From: Tubiluchus corallicola
Lineage: Eukaryota; Priapulida; Priapulimorpha; Priapulimorphida; Tubiluchidae
Direction of reading: 5' to 3'
Assembly: GCA_030141605.1 (NCBI GenBank)
Contig: JAQGDQ010000109.1
Span: 137,501-201,500 of the forward strand
DNA length: 64,000 nt
Below, one piece after another: positions 14,184 through 52,475 of the stretch. Position 1 is the first letter of the stretch, and each line of letters opens with the position of its first letter. The notes beneath the pieces are model-generated. The model had not been told where the DNA came from. It worked only from the letters and a program-made list of their open reading frames with translations, and searched no databases. A program made the position numbers and the translations under genes.

Positions 14184-17100
14184 TTATCTTCCAAATGGAC
14201 TCCCGCCAAACGGATTAGCATTGCGTCCGTTGAAAAGTCCGCTAAAAAAATTCCCTCCTCCTCCTGATGATCCTGAGTTAGGCCTAGTGTTTGGCTGCCT
14301 CAGACTAAAATCATCTGTATTCTGGTTTCTATTTCCTTGTCTAACAATAGGCGCAGACCTTGGTAAACTGAATTGGTTCAGTTTATTGCATCTTTTATTA
14401 TTAGGATTAACATAGACATCCTCTGTCAGATCTAGCATCCAGTCATAAGCAACGCTAACGTTAGTATAAACGGCGAACCGAAAATTTTGGGGACAATTTC
14501 TAACCCCTCTCTTCACTATGCCTATCACAGTCCAGAAACCACCGCCCAAGTGCAAAGCAACAGGTCCACCAGAATCGCCGTAGCAAACGTTTTCGTACGA
14601 CACCGTCTGGTCAAAACCACCACACATTTCATCGTCTTTAATTCTGATATTGTCGCGCGACTTACATATATCTTTATCCGTGATTTCTACTTGCACTTCT
14701 TGCAGAACTTGCGCTACTTCGAATGTACTTGGGTCAATTACACCAAATCCGGTAACCCACGGCTTAGATCCGATTGCTGGCTCACCCCTTAGTTGACCAG
14801 CTCGAACAGAAATCGGTTGAATGAAATTATTGAAGTCAACAGCAGTCCGGAGTCTAATTACAGCGATGTCCAATGAGGGATGAACGAAGTAATCATCATA
14901 TGTCACGTTTACTTCATTGCCAGTGTTTACTTTGAGGTTATGTTCACCTAGCGTTGCTAAAGAAAACAAAAACTAGGCGTTAATGTTAACAGCACAAATT
15001 ATATTTTTAGTGATAACAATAGTGACAATAATTAAAGAAAAAATCCCAAGTTTAAGAAAGGTTCAAAAGCATGATCCTTCAAACTATCACTGTAGTTTAT
15101 TTGCAGATGAAAAAAGAGGAAAGGTCGCAAGTATTTACAGGTACTAATTTTTTGTGGGAGTTTTTTATATCACGCTTTGAAGGAGTACAATCACTTACAC
15201 ATAAAAAAGTACAAAAGCCCAGCAAGTACAAAACAGAAGTAAAAAACACAGAATTGTAAAATCACTGGTCACAGTGACCGAGTCACAGAGCAGAGTGAGA
15301 CACAACAGGCATATCATAAGTTTCTATGAATGTGATTAGTGATTTTATACTTCTGTGTCTCTCCCCCGTGTTTTATTGTTTTTTTCTATGTGATTTTAAG
15401 TGTGACATCTTTACGCTGATACAACACAGTCATTTTAACCGAATCATCATAATAAAACAAATCACCAAGCTAAAGTAACAGTTAATTAAATTATTAAAAT
15501 TTAACCGCTTTCGGAAGCAAATCCATGTTCAAAAATAACTAAAGTGTTTGACGTTGTCACTTTAATTATTTTGTTGTTAATTTAACTTGGTGGTGTGTTT
15601 TAATATAGTGACTTCTTTATTTGTTAACAATATTAAAAATTTCTCCTAAAAATAGTATTAGTAATTTCATGTGATCATTTTTCTTCTTTTTTCACCTGAA
15701 GATAAACTACAGCGGTACTTAAAAAAAATTGTGTTTTCCCCCTTTTTAGCTGTGGGATATTTTCATTAATTAATACTAACCTGACCAGAGCATGTTTTCT
15801 CTTTAGCGTATCGGGATAGAGACAGACGGGAGGACAGAAAGGCAGACAAACGTGAAGAAATGCAGTATCCACGCACCAATTGTACATAATATATATATAA
15901 TACAATATACTCGAACCACAATGGTCGAGTGTGGGTAATTACTGTATGCGTCAAAATGGAGCTTTTTATTACAAAAATGTAGACTATAACTGCTACAAAT
16001 TCGAAAACCTTAAGTATTCTATTACCGTTTGGTTGCAGTGTGACATGAAAAACGCCAAGCAACGACGCGTGATGGAGAAAATTAGTTTAAAGTTACATCA
16101 AACTTTCTTTAGAACAGCCAAACAACCATCTTACTGTCTTTTTGTTCACAAATTTCCCTTAGTTGTTCCATCGGGCCACAAGAAAATGCATATCTGGACC
16201 CTACTCAAACTGGTATCCATTCAATATCTTTTAAATCTTTTAGTGTAAACTGTGTAAAATTAAATTAAATATTAAGTAATCATGAAACAATGCTTTAATT
16301 CAAAGCAATTAAAGCACTAGTTACTGATATAATTGGCGCGAGTTGTATAGGTTAAAGGAAAGGCCAAGCCTTCTGGGAAGTAAGGCCTTATTTCAATGTT
16401 CGCGAAAAAATTAGAAGAATTTAGTAATGAAAAAGTGTGATAAGGGCTTGGTGTAGTTGGCAAAATCACTTTTAGGTCGCCATCATTTCACGCTTGAGCG
16501 CTCAAATTTTGAACGTCTTTTCTTCCAACGATGACGTGTTGATCAGCTGAAGAAAAGCAGCACATTGTTGATATCAACTTTACAAAACAGATAGTTAATT
16601 TCGTGATGCTACTGCGTCACATTAGACAAGCTACAGAAGTATGAACAATTAGTTCAAATAGCACGCGCTTACGGAAACCACGATGCAAATACGTCCACCA
16701 GTTACGTAATAATTTTCGAGTAAATAGCAGCTACCACCGCCCCTGAAAATTTCCACACAGCAGTAGTATAAATTAATTTTATGTCTTATAGATGATGCTT
16801 TTGCAAATTTCTTTGTTATATCTTTCTAAGTTTAAGTAGTAACTGTAAAATAAACCAAACATGCATGGTGACTTTCCTTTCCTTTAATAGTGACAGTGTG
16901 TGTTTAGTAAATAAAGTTGAGCAATGCCGAGCTTGGTCAGTAAATGGATAGGTATCAGCCCAGAATACAGCTTTTGTGCACTTTTCATCTGACACACTGC
17001 TCGTGGCTTTTTACCTCAACGAAGGGATATATAAACTATTGAACGTGGCGTTTGGTTAAGATATTCTTCTGTTAGGTGTCTCGTTTTAAAGGATTTTACT

Positions 17101-18340
17101 TGATGATTTATATAAGCCATTAAAACGAGACAATATCTCGTTAATAAGTTGCGGATCTCGGCTTTTGGCTTAGCAAAACTACAAAAAAAATAGTTTCGCA
17201 AAATTATTTACCCCAAAGGGTATTAATATCCTGATTATTTATGCAGTGCTTGGCTGTCAGAATGTGGCAACTGTCGATGAGAGCGCCCCCACAGTTGAAT
17301 CCGCCTTCAGCTACGGAGAATAACTGCGCATGCCAAGGTCTTGTTCCTGGCTTCACATCCACACCTAAGAAAAGCAGGAAAATTATTAGCTGATACGCAA
17401 TTGGTAGAGAAAGAAGAAGTCATCAGATGAACGAGTTACTGGCAGAGTTCTTTAATGACTGGCTATCTACTGTAATTAGCATTTTACTGGGGGATTGTTG
17501 ACTATTTTGCATCTCTTTGCACTCTATCACTTGTCACTTGCATAGAATCAGCATGAATCTAGCGTCAAATCATCTTGGCAACACTATAGCATAGTGAACG
17601 GCAGTCAATTAGTCTAGGCACAAGCAGGTAGGGCCAGCTAACCGGTTGACGATTAGTCTTTCTTTAACCAATTAATCTTTTAGATAAAATTAGTTTTTTG
17701 CAAGTTAGTTACTCATTTCATTAATGAGTAGTCAATCGAAAAGTGGAAACTGTCCTGGATTAGGTGGGCTGGTAGCCGAGTGCTCTAGATTACAGATTGT
17801 AGACACGCTTTATGCACGGTTGCAGTTTTGGGTTCGAGACCAGCGGCTGCCAATGCCGGGCATATATTCCACAAGTATTCGTTATTTTTATTCGCGGCGT
17901 TACCTGTATAGTTGTAAGCGGTAGTCGTATTGGTGTTAAACGTTGTCTGTTAAATGAGCTTGGCGATGGTAAATAAATATTGTCTTTGTCTTTTTTAATA
18001 ACTAATAGATTAACGCAGTAATGGGTTCCTAACAAATAAGACTAACCAACTCAATTTTACATGCATTTAATGTAGAGTACGACAGTTTCTCGTAATATAA
18101 ACGTAAGTTTGAAACTTATGTAATCTTACCCCCTACTATAGCCAAATCCGTATCATTGCTTGGAGGCGGTGTGGGCAAGATACCGCCTGGTCTTGGTGGT
18201 AAACCTCCACCTGGTCTTGGTGGTAAGCCTCCACCAGGCAATTGAGGAGGTGGTATGTTGCTACCGGGAAGGCGTGGTCTGGGTTGGCCGAAGCAGCAGG
18301 ATGCGCAAACAGTCAATACGAAGACAAATTGTAACCACAT
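14184..18340 (-). CDS. Secreted S1 (trypsin-fold) serine protease A with proline-rich propeptide
   Basis: Three exons join with phase-1 introns: 18130-18340, 17212-17364 and 14184-14956, giving 378 residues. Order: signal peptide (1 to about 18), a Pro/Gly-rich propeptide with repeated GGGLPPRP units, the activation sequence IVGG spanning the first splice junction (about 68-71), then the catalytic domain. The triad is visible: His110 in LTAKHC (usual LTAAHC), Asp151 in DIAVIRL and Ser250 in GDSGGP. The residue at the base of the S1 pocket (chymotrypsin 189) is Asn, so trypsin-like specificity is not expected. After the domain comes a Ser/Gly/Asn-rich tail containing RNQNTD. Family knowledge predicts an extracellular endopeptidase made as a zymogen. 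It is the most divergent of three tandem paralogs. Intron 1 contains a tRNA-derived SINE. Confidence 0.9.
17765..17999 (+). mobile_element. tRNA-derived SINE inside intron 1 of protease A
   Basis: The head resembles a tRNA gene of the leucine type: an A-box-like TGGTAGCCGAGTGCTCTAGA near 17770 and a good B box, GGTTCGAGACC, near 17831. A non-tRNA body of about 130 bp follows, and it ends in AATAAATATTGTCTTTGTC and a T run. The spacing between boxes fits an RNA polymerase III promoter. It does not fold into a clean tRNA end to end, so a SINE is preferred to a functional tRNA gene. It is antisense to the host gene. Confidence 0.65.
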
Positions 18341-18892
18341 CTGAAAAATGCAAAATATAGTAATAAGGATTTTAAGATTCCGAAGAAAGATATATTAACT
18401 AAAAAACGGTTATTAAAAAACATCTTGAATGAATTCAAATTCAAATCCGGGAGTGTAACGCCGTGACCGTGTTCACACCTGACTATTATTCCTGTTCGGG
18501 TGTGGCTAACTTATGTCAATACTTGTAGATTATTGCGCTCAAATTTAACTAACCAGTGTGCACGGTGCTCTTGACCAATAATTACTTGACTGTACCTGGT
18601 TCAGTGTGGTTTACTCACGTGTGAATTAGCAGTTTCCTCTAATTTTCACATTTCGACTCCTATCTTGGCTTCGATTGCCGCCAAAAATTGAAATTAAATC
18701 ATAGAAGGAGTTGAATGACAATCAAAAACTAGTCCTATATCCAATGTAGTTGACCTTTTGACTGTGGTGACTGTTCACCGTGCTATTTTAAAGCCCCTGG
18801 CCCTGGTAAATACCCTGCAAATTTCGCGACCAAAACCTTCTGCGTTTGCGAATTAACATGAATTAAAACTCGATGCCTATTTTTCAGGTTTC

Positions 18893-23860: not shown

Positions 23861-25985
23861 TTAAAATTGAGTGAATTTAATGCACATCCCGTTACTAGGA
23901 TGAACATAAACATTAGAAGTTAGATCCATTATCCAGTCGTAGGCATAGCTGATATTTGTATATATGGCATAGCGGGCGTTTTGTGGGCAATTTCGGACAC
24001 CACTCTTGGCAATGCCAATCTGCGTCCAACGAAGATTGCTTAACTGTAAAACGAGTGGCCCTCCTGAATCACCATAACATACATTTTGATATCGTGTAGT
24101 TTTCTCAAATCCACCACACATTTCGTGATCTGTTATGTCGATGTTATCATGAATCTTGCATCTTCTTTTGTCAACTATTTCTACTTGCACTTCTTGCAAG
24201 ATGTTAGCTGTTTTGAACGTTATTGGGTCAACAACTCCGAATCCGGTCACCCATGGTTTAGAGCCAATACTTGGCTCAGCAAAAAACTTTCCAGCTCGAA
24301 TTGAAATAGGTTTAATGAAGTTTGTGAATTTTACAGATTCTTTAAGCCGTATAACAGCTATGTCAATGTTGGGGTGGACATAGTATTCAGCATATGTCAC
24401 TGTTTTTTCATTGCCATCAATAACTTTGGTGTTGTGTTCTCCTAAAACGGCTAAAATAATAAAAACGTTCCAGTTTTAGTTTGAAACCGCTAGTCAAGAT
24501 AATTAGAAAATACACGTTACACTGTTATGGTCGTCGTCGTTGTCATTGTGATTGTCAGTGTTGTCATCGTCACTGCTAATTTACACATAATTCTTTTTAC
24601 ATAACAGAGTGTCTTTTTACACTCACTGTAGTAACTGTTAATCAAATCAAGGAGCCAAGCTTTTGCCGTATAGATAAATGAAAGCCAAAAAAACAATTAC
24701 ACAATTTGTTACACTAATTTACATACAGTGTAAATTTACATTCACATTTACATTTTTGTTCTTTCATAAGAATGAGATGTTTACCCCAAAGAGTGTTGAT
24801 ATCTTGTTTATCGATGCAATGTTTGGCAGTGAGAATATGACAGCTATCTATAAGAGAACCGCCGCAGTTGAATCCACCTTTAGTTAGCGAAAAAAGTTGA
24901 GCATGCCATGGTCGCCCTTGATCCCTGATGTCAGCCCCTGTTTCAAAAAGCATTCAAGTCTCAAATTTTCATTTTTACAGTTCATCGTCACATATTATTC
25001 CTGCACCAGGAGGAGCAAAATTTGTCTGTAATAGCTTTTTAATAGGAAAAGCTCCTACACGTCTGAATTTTTTAAATTTAATGCACAGACCTTTTTTATT
25101 CTGTGTGTACTATGTCTTAATATACGCTCAATTAACTATTAAATAAAATAGAACAAGAACAGTAGCCTTGCTCAAAAGTTAGAACAACCTACTAATATGC
25201 CCCCTTTCTTTGTTTTCTGCATTAGAATCTGATGGAGCGGTCACTATCTTTAATAATTACTAACAGTATTTAATAAAAAAGGATTACAAACCTAATCTAG
25301 ACGATCTCAGAAGTAGTGGACCTTTAATCTCAAGGTGGCGTGATGACAAAATTCGTGATGGACGTGACGTTAATGAACCTGGTGTTATCCGTGGCGTTTG
25401 CGCACGAAAACGCTGTAAGATCTCATTTACTGGACGGAATTTAAGACGTGAAGGTGGGAATGCGATTAACCGCGAAAGCCCTGTTTCTTGCCGAGACTGT
25501 GGAACAAGAAACTCTGGACTAGGAGGTAACAAAACTGGTATTTGTTGTGGAAAGAAATTTTCTTGTCTTGGCGGCAATAAAGCGGCCTCCAAAATACCAG
25601 AACTGATCGATGAAGTGATAGTTGATGGCCGCATAACATCAGTACCGCCCACTGCACGCTGCTTGCCGCCAGATAGTCTGTAGAAGCTAGAACCAAATTC
25701 AGGTAGAGATCCACCTGCACTACCTAATTTACCAAATCCAGGTATAGCTCCACCCACACTACCTAATTTATCAAATCCAGGTATTGATCCGCCAACACTG
25801 CCTAATCCGCCAGATCCAAATCCTTCGCCAAATCCACCTCCTAATTTGCCTAATCCAAATCCGCCACCAATTCCACTGCCTGATTGACCAAATCCAGAGC
25901 CAAAGCCGCCACCAGATCCACTGCCTGATTTAGACGCTCCATTTATGGATTGTACAAATGTGGACATAACAAGTAACAGAAGCAT
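23861..25985 (-). CDS. Secreted S1 serine protease B with glycine-rich propeptide
   Basis: Exons 24785-24937 and 23861-24450 encode the catalytic domain and match genes A and C in phase and length (middle exon 153 nt in all three). Exon 1 starts at 25985 with a signal peptide (MLLLLVMSTFVQSING) and a Gly/Ser-rich propeptide with SVGG-type repeats. Two exon-1 ends are possible, both phase 1. The long form (to 25292) gives 478 residues but places SSRLG where IVGG should be, so it has no canonical activation site. The short form (to 25646) gives 360 residues and creates R-AVGG-ADIRDQG, a textbook activation site. His is in AKHC, Asp in DIAVIRL, Ser in GDSGGP; residue 189 is Asn. The protein stops soon after the catalytic domain (KFTQF), lacking the tail of A and C. 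Confidence 0.85.
25644..25647 (-). promoter_or_regulatory. Candidate internal splice donor in exon 1 of protease B
   Basis: The codons for AVGG read GCA GTG GGC GGT, with a GT dinucleotide after the first G of the last codon (donor G at 25645, T at 25644). Splicing here joins in phase 1 to the catalytic exon starting at 24937 and restores a canonical S1 activation site. The downstream donor at 25291 (G|GTTTGT) gives a non-canonical one. Which is used cannot be decided from sequence. Confidence 0.5.
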
Positions 25986-27107
25986 GTCTTTTCACACACA
26001 ATGCTCTAGTTTGCCAAATAAATAGTTTTTTTTATATTAAACTGCTCTCGCTCTTGTTGACGCAGTCAGGAAAATAAGTTTGCTATAAGCAAGGACAAGT
26101 TTGTCTCATGTGTAATTCATGACTTAATTTTTTAAACTGGTTATCTGATCGACCGCTTGGCATTCAAATGATTTTGAATTTATTGCCCAGTTGGGATGCT
26201 GCTGCAGAGAAAAGAAAAAGAAGACGAAAAGGTGGAAATGGCGGAGGATGGGAGGAAAAGGGGTAAGAGGAAGAGCAGTAATAGCAACAGTGGCTACAAT
26301 GGTAATTGCAACAGCAGCTGTTTAGCAATACAAAGTAGTCTATTTGCTTTATACATCTGCAAAAAACGGTGTTTGCAGAGCATTTTATTTAAAGTTGAGA
26401 TGGACATAAGCCTGATGATATAAATTAATTCAAAAGCTGCATTTCAATCCTATACCATAATAATTCTTTAATTCGTTAGTGTGGGGTGGCTAGTGCAGCC
26501 TGTGAAAAAGATGCAAGTACTTAGGATTCTCACTGCCCATTATATTTTATTTTTATTCAAAAACGCTGCATACATATATCGTTGCCTAATTACAATTGCT
26601 GTTACATTTATTCTGCATACGTGACGTTTCGGTCGTTCCTCGACCTTTCTCAAATGATAAAAACAAATGTAAAACAGTACGCAGTGTTACAACATACAGA
26701 CATTTCGTTTATGAAATGCTTATACACAAGCTTGCAACATACATAGTTAATATTCTAAGTGCCAAAGTAGAATAGAACGATATTATTATTCCATCACGGA
26801 AAATGTTTTGTTAGTATAGGCAAATGTATAATCCACTACTGCAATAAGTTATATATAAAATCCTTAATTTTTGAATTTAACATTACTTAATTACTTTAAT
26901 ATGATATGCTTCTCTTATCACACTGTTCTCGGCAATATCTACAATACTAAATATGTCTGTAGCGATTGGTTTCTTAGAAAAGTGAGCATGTACAACACAG
27001 TTAGTTGATTGTGTTCAATGTTACGATTATCTTATTGTCTTGTTAATGTGTGAGCTATTTACTGATTGACGTAAAGGTGCTAATTCCAATGTTCAAATCT
27101 TAGATTA
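25986..27107. other. Intergenic region between protease genes B and C
   Basis: About 1.1 kb. It contains a purine/trinucleotide-rich stretch (about 26200-26330) and the hammerhead-like relic at 26623-26654. A minus-strand ATTAAA at 26895-26900 could serve as a variant polyadenylation signal for protease C. No coding sequence is supported. Confidence 0.45.
26623..26654 (-). ncRNA. Degenerate hammerhead-ribozyme-like motif (retroelement relic)
   Basis: On the minus strand a TTTGAGAAA segment is followed by a five-base-pair hairpin, GGTCG-AGGAA-CGACC, and then GAAACGTC. This is the layout of the minimal hammerhead: CUGANGA, stem II, GAAA, then the cleavage-side GUC. The first core block is mutated (UUGAGAA instead of CUGANGA), so activity is not expected. 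Minimal hammerheads with GAAACGTC are common in Penelope-like and retrozyme-type elements; no adjoining element is recognisable here. Confidence 0.4.
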
Positions 27108-29510
27108 CTAATGTCGTCTATTAAAAATTCCGCCAAAGAAGGATGGCTGAGTGTTGCTGTTTGTACGTTGAAAATTAAAAGGATCTGTATTCTGATTCCT
27201 GCTTGCTCGAGCATTGACCTGAGCTGACCTTGGCGAACCAGACTGAGCAAATTTGGTGCATCGTCTGTTATTCGGATTAACATAAACATCTGCAGTTAAA
27301 TCTAGTATCCAATCGTAAGCAGCACTAATGTTTGTATATATGGCATAGCGGACGTTTTCCGGACAATGCCGAATACCGCTTTTGACAACGCCAATCTGCG
27401 TCCAACGAAGATTACTCAACTGCACGACTAGTGGCCCTCCAGAGTCACCGTAACATACATTTTCATATCGTGTAGCCTCTTCAAATCCACCACACATTTC
27501 GTGATCTGTAATATCGATGTTATCACGACTCTTACATCTTATTTTATCAACTATTTCCACCTGTACTTCTTGCAAGATGTTTGCTGTCTCGAATGTACTT
27601 GGGTCAACCACCCCAAATCCAGTTACCCATGGTTTAGAGCCAATTGCTGGTTCAGCAAAAAATTGTCCAGCTCGAATTGAAACGGGTTTTATAAAGTTAG
27701 TGAAACGTACTGATTCTTCAAGACGTATAACAGCTATGTCAATAACAGGATGTATGTAGTATTCAGCGTAGGTTACGTTCTTCTCGTTACCATCCACCAC
27801 TTTAATATTGTGTTCTCCTAATGTCGCTGAAAAAAAGCAATATGGCAACACAAATGTCTTATTACCCAACACAATTAGCTACAAAATGAAAATATCGAAG
27901 TCATTTAACAGATTTAGTTAAAAACAATTATATGCTTGTTTTTGGCAGGTTGAAGATGCAGAAAAAGTATGGTCTTCTTACAAGGAGGCAATATTTACCC
28001 CATAGTGTGTTTTTATCCTGATTTTCAATACAGTGTTTGGCAGTGAGAATATGACAGCTGTCTATAAGAGAACCTCCACAATTGAATCCTCCTTTACGTA
28101 GAGCGAACAACTGGGCATGCCATGGTCGTCCTTGATCTCTTACATCTGCTCCTGTTACAAAAAAGCATATATGAGTTTGAATGGTAAATAGTACAGAAAT
28201 GTGTAGAAAATTTTGTCGTTATTAGCATTGAGCAAGGCAGTCTTGAATAAATAATACTACAATAGGTTTCTTCGTGTTTTTTTGTTTTTTTTTTAATTTT
28301 TTAAATATGAGCCACAGTTTTGCGTTCCTTGTCTAATCAATATTACTACTAATCTCCGTTTTAGATTATTTTTCTTCTGTTTGCTTTAAGTTTTTTTTAC
28401 TATTGACCAATGTGCAACATATAAATATGCGTTAATGAGGAAAAAGTAATACAAACCTCCTAACACTTTTGGTACGCTTCTGTGATTAGTGCCCAACCCT
28501 ATAGCTGTATTCGGTTGAGGTACTGGAATGCGGGGCTGCCGCGAAATTGACAAACCTGGAGAAAATGGTTGCGGAGGAAACTGTCTAAGAGGCTGAGCAA
28601 CTGGTGAGCCGCCCACTAATTTTGGTGTATTATCTGGAGGACCGATTTGATCTCTGAAAAGTCGAGAAGGATTTCTATTAATATCTCGAGCACGTGTTCC
28701 AAGGAATGGAGATGGTCGTGGAACTGAATTACCTCCTGTAATCCGTGGTGTTTGAGATTGAGGGGGTCGTGAAACTGGCTGCCCTCTCACAACGTGTAAC
28801 CTTGTTGATGCGGTTGGAGGTTCTGTAACTCGCGAAACTGAAGTGCCACCTACTACATGGACAACTGGTCGTGATGTTGGAGGTTTGTCTCGTATTGGAC
28901 TATTGGGAGGCCGCGAAACGGTTGAGCCTCCTACTATTGAGACTCGTTGTTGTGAGTCTGGTGAAAAGTTTCCAGGTGTTTTAGGCTTAGGATTTTCAGG
29001 GGGTCTGGAAACTGCAGAGCCACCTCTTATGTAAGGAATATTGCCAACACCAGGCATGCCACGCTCCAGTTGTGGGATCAGAATATCAAGAAATTCAGAG
29101 CGTCTAGAATTTGGAGGGTTTTGTATTGGAGACTTCTTAGAATTTCCTTGGCGAGTTCTTTGACTCCGTTGGGTGGATGGTCTTCTGCTAATTGCGCCAG
29201 ATCCTGTCTCTCTGGCTCTTAATGGTGATTGGATTTCACCAACTCTCGAAGCAGGCCCACTCTTTTGTTTCCCTCTTTGGGTACCTCTGTCAGCTTTAGG
29301 TGGAGATTCACCTCTCCGAATTTTTTGCGTGGTTCCACGTCTTATAGGTGTTGTTACTATAGGTCTAGTATTACTATCGATAGCTATCGTGGGTCCCCTT
29401 TTAGAGATTCCAGATCGGCTTGTACTGGCGGATAATATTGAAGCTAGATCTATGCACAGCGAAGTAGTGGAGACCGTCAGTATCAATAACATATTCCGCA
29501 TATGCACCAT
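27108..29510 (-). CDS. Secreted S1 serine protease C with long propeptide of repeated activation-like motifs
   Basis: Three exons join with phase-1 introns: 28457-29510, 27999-28151 and 27108-27826, giving 641 residues. A signal peptide (about 8-22) precedes a basic, Pro/Arg/Ser-rich propeptide of roughly 330 residues, much longer than usual for S1 zymogens. The activation site K-VLGG (349-352) lies on the first splice junction and leads into ADVRDQGRPWHAQ. His is in LTAKHC, Asp in DIAVIRL, Ser in GDSGGP, with Asn at pocket position 189. The C-terminal tail shares the RNQNTD motif with protease A and ends in FNRRH. Six imperfect copies of the activation motif occur in residues 161-307. The catalytic part is closest to B (shared ADIRDQ/ADVRDQGRPW and DNIDITDHEMCGGFE). 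A secreted zymogen is inferred; its substrate is unknown. Confidence 0.9.
28590..29030 (-). repeat. Coding repeat of activation-site-like motifs in protease C propeptide
   Basis: Residues 161-307 contain IRGGSAVSRPP (161), IVGGSTVSRPP (192), VVGGTSVSR (219), VVRGQPVSRPP (240), ITGGNSVPRP (257) and LVGGSPVAQP (298). The functional VLGGADVRD follows at 349. Several copies follow a basic residue or His (HVVGG, HVVRG, RITGG, KLVGG, KVLGG). Spacing between copies is 31, 27, 21, 17, 41 and 51 residues. The shared core is aliphatic-aliphatic-G-G-x-x-V-x-R-P. Confidence 0.85.

Positions 29511-34295: not shown

Positions 34296-52475
<18,180 letters not shown>

Follow-up and report, generated by a model that had tools for sequence, protein, structure and literature searches.

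Activation-site-like motifs repeated in the propeptide of a Tubiluchus corallicola S1A protease and its paralogs

In most descriptions, an S1 protease cascade is switched on by one cut at one site. A protease gene of the priapulid Tubiluchus corallicola raises the question of why a propeptide should resemble such a site again and again, upstream of the real one. We analysed a stretch of 64,000 nucleotides (hereafter the window), part of one contig (JAQGDQ010000109.1, our C685) in a genome of 343.5 Mb and 2344 contigs. The minus strand of the window carries three S1A protease genes, A, B and C. A propeptide exon comes first in each; exon 2 supplies His57, and exon 3 supplies both Asp102 and Ser195. 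The triad motifs TAKHC, DIAV and GDSGGP are present in all of them. The first intron is in phase 1 and lies at the activation junction in all three (3/3). Elsewhere in the window, frames at 34296-35180 and 52152-52475 resemble, by eye, pieces of two-pore potassium channels, and a 74-base unit is repeated five times in tandem with 93% matches at 38197-38562.

Judged from its sequence, gene C encodes a secreted S1A (chymotrypsin-fold) protease zymogen. Its exons 3 and 2 match PF00089 (Trypsin) with E values of 7.2e-29 and 1.4e-9, and its catalytic exons match solved S1A chains, thrombin and plasma kallikrein being among the best 60 of 544. Trypsin-like enzymes have Asp at position 189; exon 3 of C has Asn at what we take to be thrombin's Asp189 position. 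Asn at this position (ENVCYGDSGGP) occurs at 27108-27878 and at 14184-14972 of the window. The exon 1 product has 351 residues, with a signal-like start followed by a Pro/Ser/Arg-rich propeptide (net charge +36, 15.3% Pro, 12.5% Arg) and no Cys beyond residue 20, and exon 1 of C, like that of B, matched no Pfam domain at E values up to 1. The propeptide is a long, basic and probably disordered chain. It ends at the true activation junction, PK/VLGGADVRDQGRPW, which spans the intron between exons 1 and 2.

All six stretches that the initial annotation had described as preceding the real VLGG were found on the minus strand, inside a single open exon and within the annotated span 28590-29030 (Table 1), and they share the consensus [ILV]-x-[GR]-G-x-x-V-x-[RQ]-P. 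Five fit the pattern [IVL].GG..V; C4 (VVRGQPV) has Arg for the first Gly and cannot be counted as a GG copy. The x-x-V of the tail assigned to them occurs in all six, but C3 lacks the Pro (VSRVT) and C6 has Q where the others have R. The residues directly preceding C1-C6 are Y, S, H, H, R and K, so that the claim that several follow Arg, Lys or His holds for four of the six, but for Arg or Lys alone in just two. Comparison of the C copies shows G4 and V7 unchanged throughout; conservation at core columns 1, 5 and 6 does not exceed that of the flanks. The flanking columns mostly have an identity of 0-0.27, with one exception, a Pro eight residues before the copy (0.67). Codons for the same residue are identical between copies in 35/81 comparisons (null mean 23.2; 207/20,000 shuffles reach 35), giving modest support to common descent of the C copies by duplication. 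Recent tandem duplication within C was rejected, as DNA self-matches of exon 1 extend over just 9-25 bases.

Table 1. Positions of the annotated features in the window. A slash marks the start of a motif or junction; parentheses mark a residue split by the intron. Positions of C1-C6 cover the first ten residues shown.
Feature	Position	Strand	Details
Gene A exon 1 frame	18116..18394	-	short Pro/Gly-rich propeptide; junction A/IVGGVDVKPGTRPW
Gene B exon 1 frame	25284..25991	-	Gly-rich start; R/AVGGTDVMRPS from 25655; decayed R/ITPGSLTSRPS
Gene C exon 3	27108..27826	-	Asp102 (DIAV), Ser195 (GDSGGP); boundaries at splice consensus
Gene C exon 2	27999..28151	-	(G)ADVRDQGRPWHAQ..., His57 (TAKHC); boundaries at splice consensus
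Gene C exon 1	28457..29510	-	open frame; donor GGAG/GTTTGT
C true junction, exon 1 half, K/VLG(G)	28457..28466	-	phase-1 intron in second Gly codon
C6, K/LVGGSPVAQPL	28590..28619	-	aligned to F2 VIGGSPVVAQPIR
C5, R/ITGGNSVPRPS	28713..28742	-	aligned to B2 and D2
C4, H/VVRGQPVSRPP	28764..28793	-	aligned to G1 LVRGNPVIRPP
C3, H/VVGGTSVSRVT	28827..28856	-	motif count in exon 1
C2, S/IVGGSTVSRPP	28908..28937	-	motif count in exon 1
C1, Y/IRGGSAVSRPP	29001..29030	-	aligned to D1 IAGGRPVTRHT

Could a Pro- and Ser-rich chain produce such motifs by chance? The pattern [IVL].GG..V occurs five times in the 327 post-signal residues of C, against a mean of 0.031 in residue shuffles (0/200,000 reach five) and of 0.069 in shuffles that preserve dipeptides (0/20,000). 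The shorter [IVL].GG, also found five times, is reached by 17/200,000 residue shuffles and 0/20,000 dipeptide-preserving ones, and [IV][VIT]GG, found three times, by 5/200,000 and 8/20,000. The x-x-V patterns were picked post hoc, from the copies themselves; a junction profile was not. This seven-column profile used only other S1 genes in this genome and was derived from the ten activation sites that a pattern extracted from 30 loci, two of the heptads occurring twice. Scored against shuffled sequence, the profile found four windows of at least 10 bits in C (null mean 0.033; 0/5000 shuffles); a fifth window, LVGGSPV (C6), scored 6.3 bits and VVRGQPV was missed. Ordinary low-complexity chance is rejected for the C copies by two types of shuffle and by the profile. 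By the same profile the copies in C resemble S1 junctions, and the description of them as the protease's "own activation sequence" is only partly right, as they are not copies of the C junction itself.

The motif extends beyond gene C. At least one copy is present in exon 1 of each of the paralogs B, D, E, F and G, with at most a partial copy in H and none in A, in which both the motif listing and the profile came up empty, the junction is normal and the only Pfam match of exon 1 is sub-threshold (DUF5527, E 0.15). Given that relatives also carry the motif, it seems to be a real family feature. Gene D, on contig C1280, carries H/IAGGRPVTRHT. Whereas C has an [IVL]xGG junction fused to the protease domain, that of B (SSRLG/ADIRDQGRPW) is one residue, a Gly, short of IxGG, and that of D (SSRLG/TGIRR) is read by analogy with B. 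In the second motifs of both genes, B2 (ITPGSLTSRPS) and D2 (TIGTSSVSRLP), which align to C5, the GG is lost and S-R is retained. D is probably a non-catalytic homologue, because Pro occupies its Ser195 position (GDPGGP for GDSGGP, within NVCHGDPGGP; L034:27-608). Exon 1 of B (window 25284-25991) and of D (L034:2339-3313) begins with long Gly/Ser/Phe-rich repeats, for example GGGFGSGFG, unlike that of C.

Gene E, on contig C1620, has single copies together with a tandem array, the only recent array seen, whose 72-base (24-residue) unit keeps the frame and reads IAVGGQPVQQPFLPETSLNTGGKP with variants. No exon 2 was found in the 3.8 kb separating its exons 1 and 3, and exon 3 contains a frame change; E is probably broken, perhaps a pseudogene or the product of misassembly. 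A run of N in the same locus (L044) ends about 5 kb from its exon 3. Genes F, G and H lie on contig C2301, and their first exons were assigned by eye, using frames and donors. F carries A/VVGGNPVPSGP and L/VIGGSPVVAQP ahead of its junction N/VVGGSPITAQQRYPW, G carries A/LVRGNPVIRPP ahead of P/IVGGSSLVNQQSYPW, and H has at most a partial SVTGGGDTTHK ahead of Y/VVGGKSRADPRDYPW. In H (L033:9449-10000) the active-site sequence is NACYCDSGGP, with CDSGGP and an intact Ser195; the Cys presumably replaces Gly193.

Searching the genome with exon 1 of C returned only itself and E among the best candidates listed, and with exon 1 of E, E itself, C and, weakly, two places on C1569, again among the best candidates listed. 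A genome search with exon 2 added an isolated exon 2 that is 88% identical to that of C and lies on C1184 (L050, C1184:12738-12881), and no exon 1 was recognized by eye among frames of more than 40 codons in about 3.9 kb upstream of it. At C2247:247819-260850, at least eight near-full-length S1 matches stand in tandem, most of them in frames of about 270-300 codons. A six-frame motif scan covered 282,799 fetched bases from loci chosen for S1 genes, some of them overlapping, with a pattern that misses C3. It gave 29 rows, 18 of them in propeptide exons of gene C's protease family (9 in E); the remaining rows were seven real junctions of other proteases and four hits in frames of 27-43 codons.

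Applied to the paralogs, the junction profile found no window in A, and none in G, which is not above chance. B has one window, at 11.9 bits, and exceeds chance only weakly, with 1530, 583 and 166 of 5000 shuffles containing at least one at 6, 8 and 10 bits. The single window in D (7.0 bits) is not above chance (2031/5000 shuffles at 6 bits). E has three windows at 6 bits (175/5000), two at 8 (138) and one at 10 (388), its array units reaching only 5.1 bits, and F has two at 6 bits (37/5000) and one at 10 (91/5000). The strong statistical case is therefore limited to C, and the paralogs contribute through alignment. Local alignments pair D1 with C1, B2 and D2 with C5, G1 with C4 and F2 with C6. 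Their scores are reached by 0/500 shuffles for D-C, 6/500 for B-C, 0/300 for B-D, 17/2000 for G-C, 58/2000 for F-C and 5/2000 for F-G; F-E (274/2000) and G-E (581/2000) are weak. Copies thus pair across two diverged subfamilies, some of the pairings being weak. F and C are 34% identical over 174 columns of exon 3, and the pairing of their copies is therefore old, if it reflects descent.

What the copies share was read from a list of 20 across genes, in which identical array units of E were entered once; column counts leave aside E2, which is in a different register (n = 19). Gly occupies position 4 in 18 of them and position 3 in 16, Val occupies position 7 in 18, and position 9 holds R (11) or Q (5), with P next in 14; since likeness guided the choice of copies, these counts are biased upward. 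The five readable real junctions (A, C, F, G and H) share [IV]-x-G-G and have V, I or L at position 7 in four of five, and then part company with the copies: their residues at position 9 are P, D, A, N and D, and the next are G, Q, Q, Q and P. The likeness thus ends after about seven residues, and the [RQ]-P tail is peculiar to the repeats. Because this tail is absent from the junctions, and B2 and D2 lost GG while keeping S-R, the motif is a repeat in its own right that overlaps the junction in form, rather than a literal copy of it. The residue before the 20 listed copies is R in six, A in four, H in three, I in three, and Y, S, K and L in one each; before the real junctions of A, C, F, G and H it is Ala, Lys, Asn, Pro and Tyr.

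The two parts of these proteins evolve under different constraint. For C and B, dN/dS is 0.05 in exon 2 and 0.10 in exon 3, and for C and E it is 0.21 over 148 codons of exon 3, against 0.47 over 135 codons or 0.63 over 324 codons of exon 1, with the reservation that E is probably broken; dS was saturated in most pairs with A, which yielded no ratio. Purifying selection on the catalytic part is strong, and the propeptide is far less constrained, to the extent that the probably broken E can tell. Comparison of the first exons further suggests that the N-terminus of the propeptide has been rewritten among the protease relatives of C.

How, then, might the motif be used? Its first seven positions would mimic the N-terminus that an S1 protease gains on activation. 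Its recurrence in paralogs of two diverged subfamilies, and the retention of G and V while the spacers differ, lead us to infer use at the protein level. The reading that we favour, tentatively and at somewhat less than an even chance, is that the propeptide is disordered and repeats its motif so that the activating protease can dock on it or process it. The copies would offer that protease, or the catalytic domains of the family itself, several places to bind or cut, and those upstream could compete with the final cut at K/VLGG, bring the protease to it or make it proceed in stages. In favour of this reading are the excess over shuffles and the profile matches in C, the 18 scan rows in propeptide exons of the family, the pairing of copies between paralogs, the fixed G4 and V7, the frame-preserving amplification in E and the constrained catalytic exons with their intact triad. 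Against it are the uneven residues before the copies, the junctions' lack of an [RQ]-P tail, the absence of copies from A, the low profile scores in paralogs, the weak F-E and G-E alignments, the loose exon 1 and the flank-like core columns 1, 5 and 6. Because the residues before copies and real junctions vary, a single trypsin-like activator for all of them is unlikely. Copies and junctions would have a common recognition element in their primed side ([IV]-x-G-G-x-x-V), and it is this possibility, together with the varied preceding residues, that leads us to propose docking or competing sites. We see a slim chance that the propeptide provides a built-in supply of activator, by analogy with activation through an inserted N-terminus: limited cutting would release or expose several chains starting with Ile/Val-x-Gly-Gly, which would insert into the Ile16 pocket, either of their own zymogen or of others nearby, before the final junction cut, making activation graded or cooperative.

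The motif may also have no zymogen function. A fast-evolving Pro-rich propeptide could accumulate repeats of common descent that drift, and their likeness to a junction would be a by-product of short Gly-Gly-x-x-Val repeats. The loose evolution of exon 1 between C and E, the loss of GG from B2 and D2 and the presence of the largest array in an apparently broken gene are all consistent with such turnover, which we regard as doubtful yet well within possibility, since the junction-profile matches in C, the V7 of 18/19 aligned copies in six genes (selected by likeness) and the pairing of copies across subfamilies argue against it. A distinct question, compatible with the other readings, is whether the copies descend from the activation junction of C's protease family. 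F2 (VIGGSPVVAQP) does resemble the F junction (VVGGSPITAQQ), and the excess codon sharing among C copies points the same way; however, the copies extend past the intron position, which would call for an intronless source or later intron gain, and the tail of the C junction is unlike the C copies, making this origin unlikely.

Two further readings place the function elsewhere. Because the true junction has its phase-1 intron inside GGA-G/GT, a copy encoded by GGA-GGT can act as a donor of the same phase, and alternative splicing could then yield a full activation site, for example PR/ITGGADVRDQGRPW, on a shorter propeptide. Ranked with a generic donor matrix, the donor-like GAG/GTAATT in the GGA-GGT of C5, in the phase of the true intron, stands second among 53 GT sites of C exon 1 and the intron start, ahead of the true donor in fifth place, which is weak by this matrix; the F2 donor scores -0.5, close to the -0.9 of the true F donor. 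The C5 donor may therefore be used. Against this stand C2, C4 and C6, which have no phase-1 GT, C1 and C3, whose phase-1 GT lies in the first Gly so that use would drop one Gly, and B1, which ranks 20/50; moreover, such a site arises from any GGA-GGT pair, and a donor leaves the downstream V-x-[RQ]-P unexplained. Since only some copies could be donors, splicing cannot explain the motif, and we consider this reading quite unlikely. Very unlikely, too, is that basic Pro/Arg-rich peptides with a role of their own, for example antimicrobial, are excised from the propeptide at the repeats. The charge of the propeptide and its Pro and Arg content would suit such a role, and an antibacterial N-terminal region has been reported for the shrimp protein PmMasSPH1 (PMC4372372), but residues at which cleavage could occur are not regular around the copies, and exon 1 of C, lacking a Pfam domain, has no clip domain.

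Propeptides that repeat a look-alike site are a natural setting in which to ask how an activating protease locates its target, and whether competing sites set a delay or a threshold. If the copies activate in trans, they would represent a new regulatory principle; if they reflect mere repeat turnover, they caution against calling short GG motifs sites. A literature search covering mostly open-access sources, in the parts available, turned up no account of an S1 propeptide in which activation motifs are repeated.

Gene C shares with known S1A zymogens (PF00089) its catalytic exons, its triad and an [IV]xGG junction with an intron at the junction, and differs from them in an exon 1 that has repeated junction-like motifs in place of a Pfam domain and in the Asn at the Asp189 position. 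Zymogens can also be activated by an inserted N-terminus, as with streptokinase and staphylocoagulase, and Bode reportedly found in 1978 that Ile-Val activates trypsinogen in this way. The C copies, if cut, would similarly expose Ile/Val-x-Gly-Gly N-termini, whereas in those systems the inserted end comes from an added peptide or a different protein. Long propeptides with no assigned role, like that of C, have been described in Tenebrio SerP5, SerP22 and SerP28, which have extended propeptides without known domains; the accessible part of that report makes no mention of a repeated junction motif (PMC11172050). In D, which has Pro for Ser195, there is a likeness to masquerade-like homologues. 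Among these, shrimp PmMasSPH1 has an N-terminal region with clip and Gly-rich domains that is reported to be antibacterial and, as far as the accessible part of its description goes, shares with the present family a secreted S1 fold and a low-complexity N-terminal region, which is Gly-rich in B and D (PMC4372372). No clip domain was found with Pfam in exon 1 of C or B, and C has no Cys there after residue 20. Gene C differs further from PmMasSPH1, within the same part of that description, in keeping its catalytic triad and in having propeptide repeats that imitate the activation site (PMC4372372).
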